Part shown: piece by piece, positions 10,200-26,800 of the stretch
Position numbering within the stretch: position 1 is the stretch's first letter
How the letters are laid out: each line of letters begins with the position of its first letter
Assembly: GCA_021464245.1 (NCBI GenBank)
Contig: JADCRB010000054.1
Coordinates: 185,481 to 249,480, forward strand
DNA: 64,000 bases
Source of the DNA: Carallia brachiata
Lineage: Eukaryota > Streptophyta > Magnoliopsida > Malpighiales > Rhizophoraceae
Direction: 5' to 3'
Translations under genes and position numbers: made by a program
The notes under the pieces: model-generated
What the model saw: the letters and a program-made list of their open reading frames with translations, nothing else
The model's database searches: none
Told to the model about the DNA's origin: nothing

Positions 10200-10240
10200 T
10201 GTAAACAGGTATAAAAAATAAAAAAAATAAAAAAAAAGGT

Positions 10241-10279
10241 GTTGGCAGCCGCCAACCTTAAAGGTTGGCGGCTGCCAAC
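10241..10279. repeat. Perfect 19-bp palindrome with 1-nt loop in the 5' LTR
   Basis: The arm GTTGGCAGCCGCCAACCTT is followed by a single A and then its exact reverse complement. The matching place in the 3' LTR (17331-17374) has a 21-bp stem with one mismatch. A second hairpin with one mismatch lies at 10291-10314. Confidence 0.95.
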
Positions 10280-10332
10280 GTAAATTAAATGCCGCCAACC
10301 AAATGGTTGGTGGCAGACAGGCGGGGGAGGCC

Positions 10333-10490
10333 TATAAATTAGTCTCCCCAAATTGAATTAAAGTAGAGAAAGCAATCGAAAAAAAAAATAAGAAGCCAAT
10401 CACAGAAAAATTGGCGTACAGGATTGGGAAATTAATTTCAAAATCAAATTGAAATTACATTTCCTACAACGAAAGAAAGCCTTATAAATA
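10333..10490 (+). promoter_or_regulatory. TATA-like boxes of the LTR promoter
   Basis: TATAAAT at 10333-10339 (in GGCCTATAAATTAG) and TATAAATA at 10483-10490. Both have counterparts in the 3' LTR. The second sits in a typical plant core-promoter context and is the better candidate for the genomic RNA start. Confidence 0.5.
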
Positions 10491-11198
10491 GGCTCATGTC
10501 CCTCAGTTTAAAATAAATTCAGCAAATCTGTAAACAGAAAAATAGAGAATTTAAGAGAAAAAGAAAATTTTGAAAATCTCTCAAGAAAATTTCTCATTTT
10601 CTTACGTGTTTTACTCTGCAGTATACTCTCTTAACTCCTTTTTAGAGATATTTCAGGGTAAACCAAAAAATTTGTTGTTTCCATTTCTAAAGTTATTTTT
10701 AAATTTATATTCTCGGATCGCTCTAAATCTGAATTTATGAGAATATAGATCTAAAAATATCAAATTACTACAAATTCGGTTGGGATCAAACCTCATACGA
10801 CCCTCAGTAAAATCCAGGCAGCTCATTCGAGAATAAGTCCCTTCGACCCTTGGTGAAATTAAACCAGATCGGCTCAGATCAGGTCTCTGCGGTTCTTGAC
10901 CGTAGTCTAAATGTCCAAATCAGATTTAGTTTCAGTCTACCCAGTTCAAGAAAAAGCTGTAGAATTTACTTCTGTCAACATCAAGCTCGTGCAGCCCTTG
11001 ACGGAGTCAAAAAAAAAAAAGGAATACTAATCGGAGGATCTACGGAGATCGACCCCACGTAAATTTTCTTTTATTTTAAATTTTTATTTGTAATTTATTT
11101 TTGTATTTTCGAGTTTAATTATTTTAGGCTCCAAAATTTACCCGTTACAAATTTTTTACACGCTCGGTGGGACCTATTCACCTCCCATTTCTTGTTCC

Positions 11199-11410
11199 TA
11201 AAAAAAAAAAAACAAAAAGAAGCAGCGAAAAGAAAAAAAAAAGAAAAAGAAAAAAAAAGGAAAAAAGAAAAAAAGAAAAGTGAGAAGAGAAAAGAAAAAA
11301 AAGAAAAAAAAAGAAAAAGAAAAAGAAAAAGGAAAAAAAGACAAAATAGAGAAAAAGACGAAAAAAGTAAAAAAAAAAGAGTAAAAAGTAAAAAGTAAAA
11401 AAAAAAATTT
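11199..11410 (+). repeat. A/G-only low-complexity tract
   Basis: About 210 bases made almost entirely of A and G (AAAAAG-type units) lie where gag should begin. Open frames here are simple-repeat artefacts encoding runs of Lys/Glu/Arg. It may mark the join left by loss of gag and protease. Confidence 0.8.
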
Positions 11411-11415
11411 TACAG

Positions 11416-14400
11416 GTGTTCAGCACATTAAATGACACCAAAAAGAAGTACAGCTGCCGGTACCAACAAGAAGGTCAACCCCCTTTCTCTTATTGTATTG
11501 ATTCTAAACAAGAGCAAAGATATAGCCAACCCAAGACAAAAGAACTACACAACCTGAAGGGGACTTACACTTTGCCGATACCAAAGATTGAGTCGGTTTT
11601 GTCCTCAAAATTATTAAAAGGCTTCGTCAAACCACACACGGGGGCAGTCGAAGGCGGCTCACTTCCAGAAAGAAGAACACACGAAGGATTTGATCTTAAT
11701 GCACATAAGCTTTTGGCCAAGGCGGGCTATGACTTCTCAAACCTGAGCACAATGGGTACGCTGCCGTCCACACATGGCGCTACTTCTCAAACATCACAGT
11801 CCCGACCTGGCTTAGACTATCAGGAGAAGTCACCTGTGCGGATCACGCTAAAGAGCCGAAGCCGAGCAGCTGATGCACGTGCCATCACCACCACCACCAA
11901 ACAAGATAGGCTTATCCAGTCAAACAAAGAAGATGAAGTCAGAGCCTCTACATTTCATGTCACAATTAGCGAGGAGGCTGAGTCTGACTCATCAAACGGT
12001 GAAGTAAAGGAGGCTCCCCCGGAACTTGAAGATGGTGGCCAAGCAACTGTTGATGAACTCAAGGAGGTCAATCTTGGCTCTCCGGAAGATCCTCGACCTA
12101 CATTTGTAAGTGCTTTACTTACTGTAGAAGAAGAGCAAGAATATGTTCAGGTATTAAGTCAATACAGGGATGTGTTCGCATGGAGTTACAAAGAAATGTC
12201 TGGACTTGATTCGAAAATTGCAGTGTATCGTCTAGCAGTAAAGAAGGGTGTTCGTTCTGTCAAGCAGCCACAACGACGGTTCCGCCCGGAAATCATTCCA
12301 CAAATCGAGGAGGAAGTTAACAAGCTGATCAATGCTGGCTTCATCCGATATGTCACCTACCCAACGTGGATTGCCAACATAATCCCGGTAAGAAAGAAGA
12401 ATGGACAGTTGAGGGTATGTGTTGATTTTCGAGATTTTAACAGGGCCTATCCGAAAGATGACTTTCTATTGCCCATGACGGAGATCACAGTCGATGCAAC
12501 AATGAGTCACGAAGCATTGTCCTTCATGGATGGTTCTTCAGGCTATAACTAAATCAGAATGGCACCAGAAGACGAGGAGTTGACAGTATTTCGCACTCCA
12601 AAAGGTATATACTGCTACAAAGTTATGCCATTTGGATTAAAAAATGCTGGCGCCACTTATCAACGTGCTACGCAAAAAATTTTTGATGACATGCTGCACA
12701 AGATTGTAGAATGTTATGTTGATGACTTAGTTGTAAAGACTAAGAAGCGCAAAGACCACCTCGAGGATCTCAAGACGATGTTCGAAAGACTTCGGAGGCA
12801 TCAGCTCAAAATGAACCCTCTCAAGTGCATTCGGTGTCACATCAGGAAAGTTTCTTGGGTTCGTGGTGCGCCATCGTGGAATCGAAGTTGATCAGTCAAA
12901 GGTTGAGGCAATTCAAAAGATGCCTGAACCTAAAAACCTGCACGAGCTGCGAAGTCTACAAGGAAAGCTGGCCTACATTCGCCGTTTCATCTCCAATTTA
13001 GCTGGGAGATGTCAACCTTTCCATCGGTTGATGAAGAAGGATGTCAACTTCGAGTGGGACGAAGCTTGCAGCAAAGCCTTTGAGAGCATAAAGAAGTACC
13101 TTTCCAATCCACCAGTCCTGGTCCAATTCAAGGAAAGTCGTTGATTCTCTACATTGCAGCGCAGGAAAGATCTTTGGGAGCCTTGCTTGCACAGGAAAAG
13201 AGCAGGGAAAGAGTTGCCTGTATTACTTGAGCAGAACACTAAACGGTCCGGAGCTGAGTTATTCGCCCATTGAAAAGACATGTCTAGCACTGTTCTTTGC
13301 CATTGACAAGCTGAGGCACTACATGCAAGCTCACACGGTACGTCTCATTGCCAGAGCTGATCCTGTCAAATATATCTTATCTAGACCAATCTTGTCAGGA
13401 CGACTTGCCAAGTGGGCAGTAATCCTACAAAGCTACGACATTGTCTACGTGCCTCAAAAAGCAGTCAAAGGACAAGCTCTAGCAGACTTCCTTGCAGAGG
13501 AAAAGCAGGAAAAGCAGTCAGATTGGGAGTTCACAGATGATCTTCCAGATGAAGAGGTCTTTTACATTGAGACACTGCCACCATGGACAATGTTCTTTGA
13601 TGGTGCAGCAAGGTGATGGTGCTGGTGCCGGCATAGTGTTTGTCACTCCTCAACGACAAATATTACCATATGCTATCATTCTTGGTGAGTTATGTTCAAA
13701 TAATGTTGCTGAATACCAGACTTTGATCATTGGTCTTCAAATGGCTGTCGATATGAAGATTCCAACTATAGAAGTCCATGGAGATTCCCAGCTCGTCATC
13801 AACCAACTTACAGGATTGTATGACGTGAAGAAAGAGGACCTTGCGCCTTACCATCAACGTGCTCGACAGCTAATGGATGAATTTGAAAGCATCACCTTGG
13901 AGCATGTGCCTCGACGAGAAAACACTCAGGCAGACGCGTTGGCTAACCTGGCCACTTCTCTTGCAAAGTCAGAAATCCAGGCTACAGTTGTTGCCGTATG
14001 CCAGAAATGGATAGTGCCACAGAAGGATGATGAAGAAACTACAGCAGCCAACGCTGTATCTGTACGTCTCGCGGAGGACGAGATTGGCGCCAACCAATCA
14101 TTGACTATACAGCACGGGAAGCTGCCCGAAGATCGTCGTCATAAGACAGAAATTCAACGACGAGCTCCCCGCTTCATATATCTCAAGGATGCTCTGTATC
14201 GAAGGTCTTTTGATGGAGTTTTACTTCGGCCTAGGCAATGAAGAGGCAAAACAGGCTCTCACTGAAGCACATTCTGGTGTTTGTGGCGGACATCAATCGG
14301 GCCTAAGTTGCACTTCCAACTCAGAAGGATGGGATACTACTGGCCAACCATGGTACGTGATTCATTGAGTTTGCTAAAACTGTCAAGCTTGTCAATTTCA

Positions 14401-15317
14401 TGCGAATTACATACATCAACCACCGGAGCCACTGCATCCAACTGTCTCATCCTGGCCCTTTGAAGCTTGGGGTCTCGACTTAGTGGGGCCCTTGCCAAAG
14501 TCATCCCTGGGTCACCTGTACATCCTCGCAGCAAGACTACTTCTCAAAATGGGCTGAAGCCATTCCACTTAGAGAGGTAAAGAAGGAGCATGTTGCCAAT
14601 TTCATCCGGACTCAGCTGATCTATCGCTATGGAGTCCCTCGATTCATCATCACTGATAATGGTAAGCAGTTCTACAACAGCTTGATCGACAAGCTCTGCG
14701 AGAAGTTCAAGTTCAAGCAGTACAAGTCATCCATGTACAATGCCCCAGCAAATGGCTTGGCCGAAGCATTCAACAAGACCTTATGCAACCTGTTGCGGAA
14801 GGTAGTCTCTAAATCCAAAAGAGATTGGCATGACAGAATTCCGGAGGCATTATGGGCGTATCGTACAACTTACCGGACTCCAACACAGGCGACGCCATAC
14901 TCACTTGTCTACGGTGTCGAAGCAATACTGCCGTTGGAAACACAGATTCCATCTCTGCGCATGGCTGTTCTGGAAGGACTCACACAGGAGGAGAATGCTC
15001 GCCTACGTCTGGATGAGTTAGAAGCTCCGATGAAAGGAGGCTCGAAGCACAACAACAACTTGAGTGCTACCAAGCCCGCTCACAACACGTTCAACCGCAG
15101 GGTCCGCCCTCGATCTTTTCAAGTTGGAGACCTTGTTCTTGCAGTGCGACGGCCCATCAACATGAAGCATCGGCCTGGTGACAAGCTTACTTCCAAATGG
15201 GACGGGCCATACTTAGTGCAGGAGGCCTATACTCACAACGCTTACATGCTGTCAGACCAAGAAGGCGTCCGAATCGGCCCGATCAATGGTAAATTTCTGA
15301 AACAGTATTATGTGTAA
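11416..15317 (+). pseudogene. Tat-lineage pol remnant: RT, RNase H, archaeal-type RNase H, integrase
   Basis: The first open frame (11416-12552) begins in the pre-RT spacer (GFDLNAHKLLAKAGYDF-type text) and enters RT. A stop (TAA) at 12550-12552 interrupts RT where the family has Gln. RT resumes at 12559 with the YVDD catalytic motif near 12715, and a frame break near 12840 moves the finger/connection region to the next frame. RNase H (ELSYSPIEKTCLAL) covers ~13250-13500. A break at ~13612 precedes the second RNase H (IHGDSQL-type HGDSQLVINQL, then RRENTQADALANL), 13612-14010. Integrase spans ~14240-15317, with a second frame damage near 14360-14540. Its acidic residues are visible in WGLDLVGP, ITDNG and NGLAEAFNK. 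The frame ends at TAA 15315-15317. Not functional as read. Confidence 0.92.
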
Positions 15318-15640
15318 ATATGTTAAAAAAAAATCAAAAAAAAGAAAAAAATCAAAAAAAAAAAAATTCGAAAGTCCCGATCTGAAAGTTCAAGCGAAAA
15401 TCCAAACCCGAAAATCCAAGCCCAAACACTTGAGCCCAATTCAGAAAACTTAAAGCCCAACTCAAAAGTCTGAAAACTAAGTCCAGACTCAAAACCCAAA
15501 CACTCAACCCAAATCCAAAAATCCAAATCAAAACCCAAACACTCGACCCAAATCCAATCCAAAGCCCAAAACCCAAAAATTCCAAGTTCCAGACACAGTC
15601 CAGAACCCAAGTTCAAAATCCAATCCAACTCCTGGCCCGC
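15318..15640 (+). repeat. CCCAA-rich imperfect repeat downstream of integrase
   Basis: After a short A-rich stretch the plus strand is dominated by loosely repeated AGCCCAAA / ACCCAAATCCAAA / ACACTCGACCC phrases. There is no coding sense on either strand. GCCCA cores resemble plant site II (TGGGCY) motifs on the opposite strand, but the repetitiveness alone may explain them. Confidence 0.6.
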
Positions 15641-15647
15641 ATGAGTA

Positions 15648-15764
15648 TAAACTGTGAACGGCCCAAAAATATAAAAGCGACGGAGGGTTTGAGTCTGAAA
15701 CTCAGCATCAGTCTCAACCGATCTTCACCACATACCAGACCTTTGCTCCTCTGCCACAAGAAAG
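15648..15764 (+). promoter_or_regulatory. Candidate promoter and leader of the WOX-like ORF
   Basis: TATAAAAG at 15670-15677 lies 88 bp before the ATG at 15765, directly after a GGCCCA motif (15659-15664). The leader between them has no upstream ATG and is C/A-rich like a plant 5' UTR. This arrangement suggests that the cargo came with, or gained, its own core promoter inside the retrotransposon. That is an inference from spacing; the TATA match itself is seen. Confidence 0.45.
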
Positions 15765-16046
15765 ATGGAACCAGTTGCAGAACCTCAAGACAAGGGAGAA
15801 GAAAGGTCACCCCGCACAAGGTGGCAACCAACCATGGCACAACTGCAAATTTTGGAGGAAGTCTTCCACAACAATGGAGGTATTATGCCTAATGCATCTC
15901 AGATTTACCAACTTGTCTCACGATTGCGCCCGCTCGGGGCAATCGAAGGAAAAAATGTGTTTTATTGGTTCCAGAATCGGAGAAGCAGGAAGAAACCAGC
16001 ACTGAGAGCTGCTTTTTCCAAAGAACAGTCTGCCGTTCCGATATAG
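15765..16046 (+). CDS. WUSCHEL-clade homeodomain ORF carried by the retrotransposon (93 aa)
   Basis: The homeodomain occupies residues ~17-77. It begins RTRWQPT and has LQILEEVF (helix 1), QLVSRLRPLG (helix 2), the IEGKNVFYWFQN signature of WUS-clade WOX proteins, and then RRSRKK. Recognition-helix Trp, Phe, Gln and Asn are intact. The loop between helices 1 and 2 is long, as expected for WOX. WOX genes regulate stem-cell niches as DNA-binding transcription factors. The domain is contiguous here; WUS-clade host genes usually have an intron in this region (family knowledge), so capture through an RNA copy is likely. The ORF stops at TAG 16044-16046, but a Ser/Thr-rich reading continues in the next frame for about 25 codons, and the WUS-box follows at 16248. 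It lies on the sense strand between integrase and the polypurine tract. Confidence 0.85.
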   Translation: MEPVAEPQDKGEERSPRTRWQPTMAQLQILEEVFHNNGGIMPNASQIYQLVSRLRPLGAIEGKNVFYWFQNRRSRKKPALRAAFSKEQSAVPI

Positions 16047-16136
16047 ATCCACTGGTACAACTTCGCCCTCAAATGAAGCAGGTCCGAGTTCTACCACTGC
16101 AATGGTCTCTCAGGTATAACATCAAAGCCGTAGCCC

Positions 16137-16382
16137 ATGGGAGCATGTGCTGGTTGGTGGTCTTACGGAGTCAGCCAAGGGTTCATCCCTCCTAGGTACT
16201 TAAGTCTAGGAGGAATTTTTCTAGCAGAAAGGAGTCATTCCGGCGAAACTTTGCCTCTCTTTCCAGAATATTCCGGCAGCATCAACCAGCCGGAAAGCGA
16301 CGTCAACATCATCGCCCACCAGACGAGGTCGAGCTTGACTTGGAGTGCGCCTCGGGCCCCGCTAGGACGGCCGACAAGATAA
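16137..16382 (+). pseudogene. C-terminal part of the WOX-like cargo with a WUS-box
   Basis: An 81-codon frame, in the same phase as the homeodomain ORF but separated from it by in-frame stops, contains TLPLFP at 16248-16265 within GETLPLFPEYSG. TL-x-LFP is the WUS-box, the repressor motif that follows the homeodomain in WUS-clade WOX proteins. Finding both in the right order and spacing supports capture of most of a WOX coding sequence. Whether 16047-16136 is a damaged linker or a small intron is unresolved; CAG|GTATAA at about 16109-16117 looks like a splice donor. Confidence 0.65.
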
Positions 16383-16466
16383 GGTGCAACGACTTTGGCA
16401 GCACACGGTAACGACTTCTGCAGCACACGGCAACGACTTCTGCAAACACGGTAACGACTTTCGTGA
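16382..16466 (+). repeat. Tandem repeat, ~22-bp unit, about four copies
   Basis: The phrase 'CAACGACTT(T/C)(T/G)GCAGCACACGG' recurs about four times with small changes (GGTAACGACTTC, GGCAACGACTTC, GGTAACGACTTT). It lies in the non-coding 3' region of the Tat element. Confidence 0.8.
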
Positions 16467-17282
16467 CCACGCGTCAGCCGCTGCCTCTTTTGTCTCTTAT
16501 GCAGGAAAGGGACGTGGATGACCCTACTCGATTCTGCGTACCTTTTTACTTTTCAAAAAAAAAAAAACTTTATCGTATGTATATATATCTGCATTCCAGT
16601 AATACTCACCCCTCAGCTCTTCTTTCTCAAAAGAAAATGGCTAGTCTCTGCACTTGTCTCAGGAAGTTCTTCGATCAAGAAGTTGGAGGCGCACGAGCTA
16701 AGAAAAGAAGGAGTAGTCTTCCCGAGGGATCCCTAAAAGCCCTCGAAACTCAGTCTCCAACGTCATCGGTGTCATGGAGTTCCAACTACTCTCCTTAGTT
16801 CACATCTACCACAGAGGGATGAGACGCTGCAATCATCCTAATCTTCCTTTAGATGCGACAACATACAGGGAAGTTCCAACTACTCTCCTTACGTCGAGCA
16901 GACTTGGGAATATCACTACAGTCAGTCTCTCTTGTGCAGGTCTTGAAGTTCCGAAGTGCTGGGCCTTCCTCTTGGGGAGGTTTAAGTTTTTTGCCTACCG
17001 GATCATTCTCACCAGAGTTTTGGAACTTCAAAGAACCTTTGCCAGTCTTTGCGAGCTATAGAAGCTCGAGCGCACCTGAAGTCAGAATGTCAATTTTTAT
17101 ATTGGCTGGACTATTAACTTTCTTAGGATCGTATCTGTTTCTTGTTGAGATCCAACAAAAGCAGGTCTAGCTGGAGATAGAAGGCTTCAACATTCAATAT
17201 TCATCAAGACATCTCAAGTTTCAAACTGGACTTCAAGACTCGGTTCAGATCATTTCTATAAAATTTTTCTTTACCAACCCTT
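16467..17282 (+). other. Unassigned 3' internal region of the Tat element
   Basis: No recognisable domain. Short open frames overlap in all three plus frames. A ~20-bp phrase (AGTTCCAACTACTCTCCTTA) occurs at about 16777 and again at about 16872, showing a local duplication. It probably holds the decayed end of the cargo plus the untranslated region before the polypurine tract. Confidence 0.5.
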
Positions 17283-17296
17283 GAAGTGGGAGCATT
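17283..17296 (+). other. Polypurine tract before the 3' LTR
   Basis: GAAGTGGGAGCATT directly abuts the TG of the 3' LTR. A GAAGTGGG core just upstream of the LTR is the plus-strand primer site typical of Tat/Athila-type gypsy elements. Confidence 0.8.
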
Positions 17297-18251
17297 TGTA
17301 AACAGGTATAAAAAAAAAAAAAAGAAAGGTGTTGGCAGCCGCCAACCTTGAAGTCAAGGTTGGCAGCTGCCAACCTAAATTAAATGCCACCAACCAAATG
17401 GTTGGTGGCACACAGGCGGGGGAGGCCTATAAATTGGCCTCCCCAAATTGAATTAAAGAAGAGAGAATAATCGAGAAAAAAAAAAACAAGAAGCCAATCA
17501 CAGAAAAATTGGCGTACGGGAGTGGGGAATTAATTTTAAAATCAAATTGAAATTACATTTCCTACAATGAAAGAAAGCCTTATAAATTGGCTCATGTCCC
17601 TCAGTTTAAAATAGATTCAGCAAATCTGTAAACAGAAAAATACAGAGAATTTGAGAGAAAAAGAAATTTTTGAAAATCTCTCAAGAAAATTTCTCATTTT
17701 CTTACGTGTTTTACTCTGCAGTATACTCTCTTAACTCCTTTTTAAGAGATATTTCAGGGGTAAGCTCAAAAAAATTTGTTGTTTCTATTTCTAAAGTTAT
17801 TTTTAGGTTTATATTCTCGGATCGCTCTAGATCTGAATTTATGAGAATATAGATTTAAAAATATCAAATTACTACAAATCCGGCTAGGATCAAGTCTCAT
17901 ACGGCACTCAGCAAAATTCAGGCAGCTCATTCGAGAATAAGTCCCTTCGACCCTCGGTGAAATTAAACCAGATCGGCTCAGATCAGGTCTCTGCGGTTCT
18001 CGACCGTAGTCTAAACGTCCAAATCAGATCTAGTTTCAGTCTACCCAGTTCAAGAAAAAGCTGTGAAATTTACTTCTGTCAAGATCAAACTCGTGCAGCC
18101 CTTGACGGAGTCAAAAAAAAAAAGGAACACTAATTGAAGGATTTACGGAGATCGACCCCACGTAAATTTTCTTTTATTTTAAATTTTTATTTGTAATTTA
18201 TTTTTGTATTTTCGAGTTTAATTATTTTAAACTCGAAATTTACCTGTTACA
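17297..18251 (+). repeat. 3' LTR
   Basis: 955 bp and collinear with the 5' LTR, with scattered substitutions and small indels. The first hairpin is 17331-17374 and the second, perfect here (GCCACCAACCA / TGGTTGGTGGC), is 17386-17409. TATA-like boxes are conserved, so this LTR could drive read-through into downstream DNA, but no gene lies within 10 kb on that side. Confidence 0.93.
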
Positions 18252-18256
18252 ATTAA
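18252..18256. repeat. Right target-site duplication of the Tat element (ATTAA)
   Basis: Exact copy of 10195-10199, directly after the terminal ACA of the 3' LTR. Confidence 0.9.
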
Positions 18257-23453: not shown

Positions 23454-23696
23454 TAAATAATCCAGATTGATCTGAAATATTGCTAAAGTATTTCCACAAA
23501 AAAAAAAAAAACAGGAAGAGTGTAAACATGGCTCTTGCAGACCGCAGAGGCCATCAATCAACCAAAGTAATTGTGAAATTCAAGAGAAGTCAAATAAACT
23601 TTAAGAAAAACAAATCAACTTGCAACTTGCTAACAGAGTTCTTTTTTTTCTGAACAGCAGAGTATTGTTTTATTTTAGGAAAAAAGTAAGGCACCC

Positions 23697-23882
23697 GAAT
23701 CGGGCATCTTGCCCGAATTTTTTTTGTGCAACAAGACCAACGTTTTGTGCAACAAGACTGTTATTTTGTGCAACAAGAAACACCTGTATTTTTCTATATT
23801 TTTTGTTGCACAAAATGTTGGTCTGGTTGCACAAAATGTTTGTCTGGTTGCACAAAAAAAATTCAGGCAGGATGTCCGATTC
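23697..23882. mobile_element. Foldback element with iterated GTGCAACA units
   Basis: The left side reads GAATCGGGCATCTTGCCCGAA, then a T run and three direct copies of TTTTGTGCAACAAGA. The right side reads the inverse: TTGTTGCACAAAATG, GGTTGCACAAAATG, GGTTGCACAAAAAAAATTCAGGCAGGATGTCCGATTC. The whole folds into a long stem with a short centre near 23790-23805. Outer arms match apart from a few changes. No transposase; the open frames here arise from the repeat. Target duplication not determined. Confidence 0.75.
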
Positions 23883-26800
23883 TGGAAGTGTAATGGCGCC
23901 CTTTATTTTATGCATGGCAACCTACAAACTGTAGGCACCCAATAGGAAGCAACCTCGCTAATGCAATTCATGCGGGACTTCAAACGAAAGAAATAAAATA
24001 GTGGCCATACATATTGAGACTTTATTACTTGATAGATGCTTCATGTGATTGAGTTAGTTTTGATGATTGGAAACAAGATGTGAGGTCGAACGCAACACAA
24101 AATATATGTACCAGTAATGTTATATGGACGCAGGTAAAGTAGCGCAAGGAAGACGCGAACTCATAAACAGTGTACCCATTGATGAGATGCAGATGATAAT
24201 GTTATTAATGAAGAAGAAAAGAGGAATATAGGTGGGTAGCACCCAAAAAAACAATGCTATCCGAATCAGACCATCATTTCCATGTCTCGTAATTGGTTTA
24301 GCAGACCTGAGATTTTCGTGGGTGGGTACCCCCCTTTTTTTCCCTTCGCCTTAACTGCATTTACCTGTTAGAAATACCATGTTGCATTTATTTAACCCAA
24401 TGAATTGTGCATTCCAAAGAAATATAGATTAGATATTTCCTCTATCAGAAAGGTTACCAGCTAGCTATAAGGGAGTAACACATGCCAATTATAATCTTTT
24501 TGAAATTTTCACATGGTCTATACATAATTTTAGTTTATGTGTCCAATCTTTCCCTAGCATGTCTTTGTGCTTCAGTGCGTTCATTGTTATTAGTTGGAAC
24601 ATCCAATTATTTTCACTCTGAGTGTCAATTATCCTATTTTTAATTAATTTTTTTCTTTTAATTGATTTCATGCAGATATCAACTTGATAATTTTTTACAC
24701 ATTTAGGGTCCGTTTGTTTGCTGTAAAATAACTTACATTTGTAAAATATTTGCAAAGGTTAGTTGTTGATAGATGTCTTGTATAATGCATTGTCGATTCC
24801 GTACCCAAAAGTATCCATTATAACCTAACCTTTGCTTTTTGATAAATTTTGATAATTTAAGCTAATTAAACTCCAAATTGTTAGCACGACCCCACTCTCG
24901 CAGCCCTCGCTCGTTTCATAAAATGCACCCAAATGAATTTGAACTAAAACTGTACGCCTATTTTACACAATCTCTAAGACTTGTTTTTAGAAAAAATAAA
25001 ATTTCATATCAAAATTTGGAGTGTGTGAGAGAGGGAAAGGAGACAAGGAAAACGAATATATGTAGATGGCGTATCTTCGAGTCAGCCACCAACAGTCACT
25101 CACGATGTCAATTTTCCACAATTATAATGTTGATGACTGCACTCCTTAGTCCATTAGCAAAAACCAAAAAGAAGACCTTGCACATATATGGTGATATTGC
25201 AGACAGAATAAGGCTATGGGCCAATCCTTTGTTTTTCTTTCTTTGTGTATTGCAGCTAGGTGATAGACACCCATTTTTCAGCACCATATTAAATGTCCTT
25301 TTTCTTCAATTTAGTTAAAGGTGGGCCAAAAGTAATCTGTTGATATCCTCATTTAATTTGATTATAGGACCGACCTATTATCCAACAATGATGGATCCAA
25401 GTGAGCTCTCCCAGTCAATCACAAGGTATCAAATCAAAAACCCAACGTGCATCAATCATAAATTTGTTATAATTTTTTTTGAAATCAAGGAATACTATTG
25501 AGGGGATTCAAATCCGAATCAATAAGAAGGGTTATTTGCTCACATAACACTAAGCTTCAATATTGGGAGTGGTGAGCTTATAAGCCCCTTTTTATATTAG
25601 AAAAAGTTTCGGACTTAGCTTATTGAGTCAGAGAAAGATCAAAATATAACAAATTATTAATTTTGTGCAATTATATTGAGATTTTGTGTAAAAATAAAAC
25701 GAAACAATGTGATGCATTTGTTTTTATTATTTTACATTTTATTAATATTATTGTACAAAATTTAAAAATCGTTGCATTTTAATGCTTCATCTAGCTAAAT
25801 TGTCTGGTTGAATCATCTGGATCCAAATCTGCCCTCTTTTATATTTCCAAAGCGGTGAGCCTATTAGGCCCTTTTTGTATTTCAAAATTGATAGAAGGAC
25901 AGGGTAAGAGAAGGGGCATTACGCAGAGTGGAGAGCAAGAGAGAACGAGGAATGGTAGGACAGATTATTAGTCCCACTAATTTTTGTTTTTTATTTGCAA
26001 AATTTGATATTATGTATATAATAATTAAATTTGATATGTAATAGATATAAATATAAAAATTCAACAAACTCATAAAAAGATGCCTTTGTCGATTATTTGC
26101 AACAGTTTATATATATAAAGTTAATATGTAACAAATTTAATTTTAATGTGTATTATACATGAATTTTTTTTAAAGAAAAAGTAAAATTATGGTGGCTATC
26201 CCATCCTATCAAAGCACTTTATATTTAATAGTTTTGGCATAGAAGGTTACTATACAGACACACTTAAGAAGATACGCAAAAAATACGCACTTAATCTAAT
26301 GATATCTAACAGTTTATCTATTTTTTATTTTTTTAAATTTAATTAATTTTTCACAATTTAATGATTTCGATCACTGCGTGCACACCATATTCCCACTTTT
26401 ACACGTCCACTTATCTTTTTCCATTTTTATAAGCTTCCATGTTCACAAGTTGTGGGAAATGGAAATGGAACCTGGAACATTTAAGGGAATAGAACATAGA
26501 ATCCTCGCGCTTAGCACAACTATTAATATTGCTACCTGAGCTACTAGCTTCTGAACCATATGCCATTACCCTTGCTATAATAGCTTATCCTGATTGCATA
26601 TCCATTTGCTTTTTGCCTATATGTATAGTCCACCAATATCAAAACAGCTCACTTAAAGTATGTTAGGCATCACATTCTTGATTGAACCTCAATCAATAAT
26701 GTAATCGCACAACATTTTTTTTTCATGAATGAAATGAAAGATTCTATAATTATGGAGCCTAGAAGATGGAAGGAAAAAAGACGACAGAGAAAACTGGGGC

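Follow-up and report, generated by a model that had tools for sequence, protein, structure and literature searches.

A WUSCHEL-type gene carried by a family of Tat-type retrotransposons in Carallia brachiata

A captured WUSCHEL (WUS)-type gene is almost certainly a standard part of a retrotransposon family in the genome of Carallia brachiata. In the window, which is the whole stretch of 64,000 nucleotides analysed, a single LTR retrotransposon of the Tat type of Ty3/gypsy occupied positions 10200–18251 of the + strand (Table 1). The sequence-only reading had described sense cargo located 3′ of the integrase of a Tat element, namely a homeodomain of WUS type and a WUS-box; this description was borne out and extended to the whole family. 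The captured gene is predicted to work as a transcription factor that serves the element, and we give this reading a probability of roughly 60%.

The window element and its WUS-type ORF

The LTRs of the window element started with TGTAAACAGG and ended in C(C/T)GTTACA. Its Pfam matches followed the order PF17917, PF13456, and PF00665, the last of them below its cut-off. In Ogre and Retand elements, the interval from RH to IN contains a second RNase H (Neumann et al., 2019, PMC6317226). Because the window element had this second RNase H, the Tat assignment was correct at the clade level. No gag was found in the window copy when two gag-protease frames of a relative, L031, were compared by tblastn with window 11150–12600: one frame had no match there, and the other matched only at its end, residues 546–589. 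In L031 itself, gag was detected (PF03732, E=1.3e-7), a protease-like match (0.0018) fell below the cut-off, and RVT_1 was found upstream. A second small sense frame with the sequence MASL(C/Y)TCLRKFFDQEVGGARAKKRRSS... was observed 3′ of the WOX ORF in both elements (window 16637–16798; L031:8219-8806). It was basic, alike in both, and had no Pfam match. Elsewhere in the window, at 23605–23945, short repeated motifs gave overlapping open frames on both strands.

Table 1. Features of the retrotransposon at window 10200–18251 and its flanking bases.
Feature	Position	Strand	Remarks
5′ target-site duplication ATTAA	10195..10199		adjoins LTR end; identical five bases at 18252-18256
5′ LTR	10200..11149	+	950 bp; starts TGTAAACAGG, ends CCCGTTACA; 91.8% identity to 3′ LTR over 965 columns
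pol start (protease-RT linker and part of reverse transcriptase)	11392..12891	+	frame-broken; 94-98% identical to relative L031
RNase H	13092..13616	+	PF17917, E=5e-18
Second RNase H, RH-integrase interval	13483..14241	+	PF13456 RVT_3, E=1.1e-23
Integrase	14484..15317	+	PF00665, E=1.7e-6, 28.6 bits, below cut-off 32.6
Promoter-like stretch	15643..15680	+	GAGTATAAA unit at 15643; TATAAAAG at 15670-15677, ~90 bp 5′ of ATG
WUS-type ORF, open portion in window copy	15765..16046	+	93 codons
WUSCHEL-type homeodomain	15816..16004	+	PF00046, E=2.4e-13; PDB WUSCHEL, E=3.7e-19
WUS-box TLPLFP	16248..16265	+	within ORF 16134-16382; homeodomain frame, 3′ of three stops
C-terminal EAR-like motif remnant DEVELDLEC, frame-shifted	16322..16348	+	LDLEL(H/R)L in relatives
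3′ LTR	17297..18251	+	955 bp; 91.8% identical to 5′ LTR
3′ target-site duplication ATTAA	18252..18256		matches 5′ copy

The WUS-type homeodomain lay where the sequence-only reading had placed it, and the profile search that it had named as decisive returned a homeobox match above the threshold (PF00046; score 50.1 bits, cut-off 22.9). Three PDB entries matched the window ORF, among which WUSCHEL was the best and STENOFOLIA the next (1.2e-16). The order and spacing of the homeodomain and the WUS-box had also been read as those of a WUS-clade WOX protein. Both were present and shared a frame, but in the window copy they were separated by three stops (TAG 16044–16046, TGA 16074–16076, and TAG 16131–16133). 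Thus, the window copy is decayed and encodes no single protein. Its C-terminal motif region, moreover, lay in a different frame from the homeodomain. This third WUS motif, the C-terminal LxLxL (EAR-like), was absent from the earlier reading and was held by intact copies.

Copies in the genome, the intact protein, and its origin

The assembly searched comprised 337.5 Mb in 164 contigs. The 93-aa query from the window gave 1758 first-look candidates, and the best 150 of these, which were scored with the window as the first, were all 95–100% identical over 90–93 residues; an internal stop was found in four of them. This agreement indicated that the homeodomain ORF was beyond chance. An Ipomoea WOX protein used as query gave 1342 candidates, of which 150 were scored; among the 30 loci examined, 8 were host WOX genes and 22 belonged to elements. 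When both homeodomain queries were pooled and the eight host WOX genes removed, there were 282 distinct loci on 96 contigs, a few of which may be host genes.

The integrase of the window element was also used as a query to avoid choosing copies by their homeodomain. It gave 3303 candidates and 142 matches, 140 of which were used, and these were 83–98% identical apart from the window itself. A listed WOX match lay within 2.5 kb downstream in 52 of the 140 copies. Fourteen copies were taken from the remaining 88, and the WOX ORF stood at the same place in all of them, be it in complete, cut, or decayed form; L077 had a deletion of the end that holds the WUS-box. The sequence-only reading had asked for other Tat copies with this ORF in the same genome, and they were plentiful: at least 150 loci at 95–100% identity, besides the 14 of 14 integrase-anchored copies. 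These numbers ruled out a one-off passenger or a host pseudogene. They also set the family apart from maize Bs1, in which a host transcript was likewise captured by an LTR retrotransposon but whose type of transduced gene is described in one or few copies (PMC7264820). An alignment of two copies, L023 and L026, contained 10 mismatches and 56 gap positions in its 3291 columns, and this near identity indicated a recent spread of the family. A search of viral contigs with the 207-aa ORF of L013 yielded six pattern matches, none of which was confirmed.

Among the 30 loci from the 93-aa search, 11 (L005, L013, L015, L020, L023–L028, and L030) held an open frame of 203–209 codons with the homeodomain, TL(P/S)LFP, and, at the C-terminal end, LDLEL(H/R)L. 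Frames of 148 codons ending before the WUS-box occurred in six of the 30 loci, in two shared forms (L011, L012, L019, and L029; L014 and L017). This suggested that the C-terminal motifs are dispensable for spreading, at least in trans. In an alignment of 25 rows, made of three element copies chosen as intact and 22 WUS-type database proteins, the columns of the homeodomain core, T-L-x-L-F-P, and L-x-L-x-L were invariant and the linker had diverged; the LDLEL(H/R)L of the element aligned with the SLELSL of WUS-type proteins. The L013 ORF had 419 matches among 5.8 billion proteins searched. The best 120 of the 419 were at most 53% identical to it; many bore the name WUSCHEL, and the rest were labelled as homeobox, WOX, or hypothetical proteins, apart from a single entry with an odd name. 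The AlphaFold2 model of the 207-aa ORF contained three helices, with a pLDDT of 89–92 over residues 21–70 and low values elsewhere (mean of the whole, 57.8). Foldseek placed 11 of 99 PDB matches of this predicted fold at E≤0.001, all of them the WUS homeodomain or STENOFOLIA, with a homeodomain identity of 47–55%. The element ORF is WUS-type both by sequence and by its predicted homeodomain fold.

The family was further compared at 52 element loci, 30 from the 93-aa search and 22 from the Ipomoea WOX search, all of them picked by homeodomain. The bases of the binding site are read in WUS by R38, Q89, N90, and R94 (PMC7203112), and the equivalents of these residues were kept in 52, 51, 52, and 51 of the 52 homeodomain-chosen loci, respectively. 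At the position of S36, there was arginine in 47 loci, cysteine in three, serine in one (the old copy L060), and a gap in one. The change S36R in Arabidopsis WUS raised TAAT binding sixfold (PMC7203112), and thus the element protein may read DNA in a slightly altered way.

Like the host WUSCHEL, the element protein had an N-terminal homeodomain, a WUS-box, a C-terminal EAR-like LxLxL, and the four base-reading residues. It differed in its single intronless frame, its shorter linker, the arginine in place of S36, and a homeodomain that was only about half identical. In the two host WUS genes, L062 and L063 (C90 and C65), the homeodomain and the WUS-box lay in separate frames 1.1–1.2 kb apart with splice-like signals between them, whereas the element held both in one frame, ~0.3 kb apart. 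This contrast suggested that a spliced WUS message (cDNA) was probably captured by the element. The best protein matches of the host genes were from Erythroxylum novogranatense (57 and 60%). In the second paralogue, L063, the C-terminal motif seemed shifted after SLEL. A tree of 45 homeodomains over 63 columns, with 14 of the 52 element loci, united the element rows in one clade (support 100/99), whose stem had a length of 1.04 changes per site. Under the midpoint root, the element rows and an Ipomoea WOX7-like protein made up one side of a starred branch (96/94). With such a root and so long a stem, the tree singled out no donor.

Age, selection, and the class without detected pol

A second type of homeodomain (NVYFWFQNRRHRE) was found in L075 and L076, and parts of it were found in L081 and L086, inside ORFs otherwise of the main type. 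Segments thus seem to have been exchanged between element lineages. Between the homeodomains of the second type and the main type (L025), dS was 0.49, dN 0.13, and dN/dS 0.27 (Fisher test against equal rates, p≤0.001 by rounding). Assuming plant substitution rates between 6.5e-9 and 1.3e-8 per site per year, the homeodomain would have resided in the element for some 19–37 million years, which is an order of magnitude only since the ORFs look mosaic.

Across the 52 loci, pN/pS was 0.26 in the homeodomain (0.43 between cluster representatives), 0.62 in the linker, 0.65 in the C-terminal part, and 0.18 in the integrase; non-coding pseudo-frames of the same set, whose loci were chosen by homeodomain similarity, gave 0.56–0.88. 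A homeodomain value of 0.05 in the main cluster was set aside as biased by that choice of loci. Owing to the same bias, the integrase-anchored copies were taken for the selection test. The sequence-only reading had looked to dN/dS among element copies, and here the outcome was divided. For variants present in at least two of the 14 copies, the homeodomain ratio was 0.44 against 0.83 in matched non-coding sequence, in the direction expected of a kept gene, but with p=0.20; the linker and the C-terminal part were near neutral and gave no selection signal. Single-copy variants had a homeodomain ratio of 0.52 against 0.82 in the control, and so low a single-copy ratio is not predicted by selection before insertion. 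Blocks of L075 and L025 compared against a neutral ratio of 0.8 gave P=0.16, 0.26, 0.05, and 0.86, and the C-terminal part compared with the old L060 gave ratios of 1.6–1.7. The homeodomain ratio was below the non-coding control in all three sets, two of which were chosen by homeodomain. Taken from these sequence comparisons, purifying selection on the homeodomain is suggestive.

TATAAA was found within ~170 bp 5′ of the ATG or of the homeodomain start in all 52 loci. In 42 of them, pol lay within 1.5 kb upstream; the other 10 had no integrase there, although one of these, L044, had a more upstream pol piece. Seven of the 10 (L004, L008, L009, L010, L053, L056, and L060) carried tandem units of ~44 bp, each with GAGTATAAA, directly 5′ of the WOX ORF, and these arrays of 3 to 11 units were seen at no more than these seven of the 52 loci. 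The array in L008 (L008:913-1386) comprised 10.7 copies with 92% matches according to TRF. A gag piece lay 5′ of the array in three of the seven loci. The surroundings of L060 formed an old element on the minus strand, L067, which carried the WOX ORF between LTRs 82.6% identical to each other. No pol piece was matched in the whole of L067, and no clear target-site duplication was present in the flanking bases inspected; compared with the window, its LTRs were 74–80% identical where they matched, and its WOX ORF 78%. Within the class without pol, the full frame was kept in L056, and that of L008 was kept up to LDLEL. The arrays and the pol-less loci together point to a line of elements in which pol was apparently lost, the WOX ORF retained, and the TATA-bearing unit before it multiplied. 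The ~44-bp array looks like a multiplied promoter unit, judging by its motifs; a TATA sequence alone is no proof of a promoter.

These observations bear on the explanation that a WUS cDNA was captured by chance and copied along by pol, so that its conserved motifs are a legacy of the host gene that it once was, and the open frames of young copies reflect no more than their youth. The ratios of the linker and the C-terminal part, which were close to the non-coding control, agree with this, as do the shortened ORFs at six of 30 loci, the p value of 0.20 for the homeodomain in the integrase-anchored copies, and the ratio that is low in single-copy variants too. However, the region was kept in all 14 of those copies, across homeodomain types that are 0.49 apart in dS, the homeodomain ratios lay below the control in every set (with two of the three picked by homeodomain), and the pol-less class retained the ORF and multiplied a TATA unit in front of it. 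WOX cargo is also reported from Vigna (PMC10714607). On this balance, we consider mere passage with the element unlikely, and prefer a gene that would be kept for its use to the element.

Proposed function and comparison with known systems

For this element-serving transcription factor, we propose the following course. A family of the Tat clade would have captured a spliced WUS-type mRNA and kept it as a sense accessory gene in the interval between the integrase and the 3′ LTR. The ORF would be transcribed from an internal TATA promoter; one paper on a 3′ gene reportedly names an internal promoter in its title. The protein would go to the nucleus, bind sites of the TGAA/TAAT type, and recruit TOPLESS-type co-repressors by its WUS-box and EAR-like motif, which is the role of these motifs. 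Host transcription would thereby be altered to the benefit of the element, most likely in the stem-cell or silencing programmes of the meristem cells that yield the germ line. Copies of a plant retrotransposon count solely in cells bound for gametes, and these descend from meristem stem cells, where WUS acts. A protection of stem cells against viruses has also been ascribed to WUS, and thus interference of the element with that programme is possible. That the host stem-cell programme is the main target is a tentative proposal.

Other targets were also considered. The tandem site preferred by WUS is TGAATGAA (PMC7203112). It was absent from the LTRs tested, in which neither TGAA nor TAAT was in excess; one LTR held one pair of TGAA sites at most 1 base apart, as did 33 of 200 shuffled sequences. 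Control of its own LTRs by tandem TGAA was therefore unsupported, and without an excess of WUS sites the LTRs are the less likely target. The protein might instead bind other element DNA, namely the 44-bp TATA unit with its TTCA/TGAA core, and set the expression of its own copy or family with the host unaffected. In the 588-bp array of L008, there were 14 TGAA cores against 4.3 expected, a number reached in none of 200 shuffles, and the TRP28 proteins of Retand have been proposed as regulators of transposition (PMC11963269). However, the TGAA excess stems from the core of the repeated unit and may thus be one event multiplied, and the tandem TGAATGAA was absent from the array as from the tested LTRs, where no excess was seen. 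Such a self-directed regulator appears improbable to us.

The sequence-only reading had also suggested small RNAs made against host WOX genes. The hundreds of copies are likely targets of silencing on general grounds, but little in the sequences spoke for silencing of the host genes in trans: in 32 element–host WOX pairs (4 × 8, same strand only), the longest exact match was 16 nt in two pairs, 15 in one, and at most 12 in the rest, and the number of 21-mers with up to three mismatches was 0–17 per pair. This explanation is very improbable.

If the preferred reading is carried further, the element might manipulate the stem-cell niche with its own WUSCHEL, its own promoter, and a DNA preference shifted by the arginine at S36, and so keep or make cells of the gamete lineage stem-like or blunt silencing there; its pol-less relatives would then be WUS-carrying satellites. 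We put this forward as a speculation, and were it true, the amplified WOX genes of Vigna would be another instance of that strategy.

The sequence-only reading was aware of no description of a homeodomain as cargo, and in this respect it did not hold. Vigna marina and V. riukiuensis are reported to have accumulated numerous WOX copies (more than 1000 in the latter), most of which lie between identical LTRs flanked by target-site duplications (K. Naito, in a 2023 meeting report, PMC10714607). The cargo is of the same kind as in Carallia brachiata, with many WOX copies between LTRs; the hosts differ, Vigna being legumes, and the Vigna WUS proteins found match host WUS at 50–69% only. The available account (section 7 of PMC10714607) gives no element lineage, gene place, motifs, pol-less class, or promoter unit, and no fuller publication on these elements was among the matches listed. 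No further case of WOX cargo was found in the literature, as judged mostly by titles and the openings of abstracts. As far as seen, what is new here is another plant order, a Tat frame with gag-pol, a three-motif protein behind the integrase, and a pol-less class with a TATA array.

Other extra ORFs of Tat and gypsy elements are comparable in part. In Phalaenopsis, an ORF for an AlkB-type m6A demethylase, whose activity was tested in vitro, is carried by gypsy elements nested in the Tat family and resembles the WUS ORF as an extra ORF that stems from a host gene family and is kept throughout an element family, but it encodes an RNA demethylase in 25-kb Ogre-like elements (PMC9289625). The antisense TRP28 ORF of Retand, found between pol and the 3′ LTR in all but two Retand clusters, shares the Tat clade, the place between pol and the 3′ LTR, and a putative DNA-binding product (PMC11963269). 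In contrast, the WUS ORF is sense, encodes a homeodomain, and has 621 bp, and the IN–LTR region is 1.98 kb instead of the 2.9–6.6 kb of Retand (PMC11963269). Three antisense ORFs tested in the IN–LTR region of the window had no Pfam match that would point to a TRP28-like ORF. A Citrus gypsy element with a YgdH/LONELY GUY domain captured a gene of a meristem-related (cytokinin) pathway, which is, however, no transcription factor (PMC9289625, citing Steinbauerova 2011). By analogy, the Citrus and Vigna cases hint that meristem regulators may have been captured repeatedly.

A screen of 121 genomes reported 15 extra domains, and no homeodomain is among the nine that are named, which include B3 (Alvarado-Marchena 2022, PMC9289625). 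The term "homeo" was absent from the available texts of Neumann 2019, Vicient 2025, Alvarado-Marchena 2022, and Vicient and Casacuberta 2020. ORFs of at least 250 codons were counted by Neumann 2019 (PMC6317226), and surveys with this threshold are blind to an ORF of 207 codons. Vicient 2025 considered ORFs of at least 600 bp in elements with identical LTRs and described sense ORFs without a known domain in the region between pol and the 3′ LTR (PMC11963269). For annotators, the present family is a warning that elements account for many of the WOX-like frames in genomes of this kind.

The large family in which the WUS ORF is standard includes near-identical copies. Tat elements typically hold extra ORFs in the interval from pol to the 3′ LTR, mostly of unknown origin and function. 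Here the origin is plain: the gene derives from WUSCHEL, which has a central part in regulating the stem cells of the shoot and whose homeodomain structure has been resolved at the atomic level. This suggests a genomic parasite that keeps a stem-cell regulator of its host among its own tools. Together with the Vigna case, it makes testable whether plant retrotransposons repeatedly capture regulators of the meristem and employ them to act on the host within the cells that yield the germ line.
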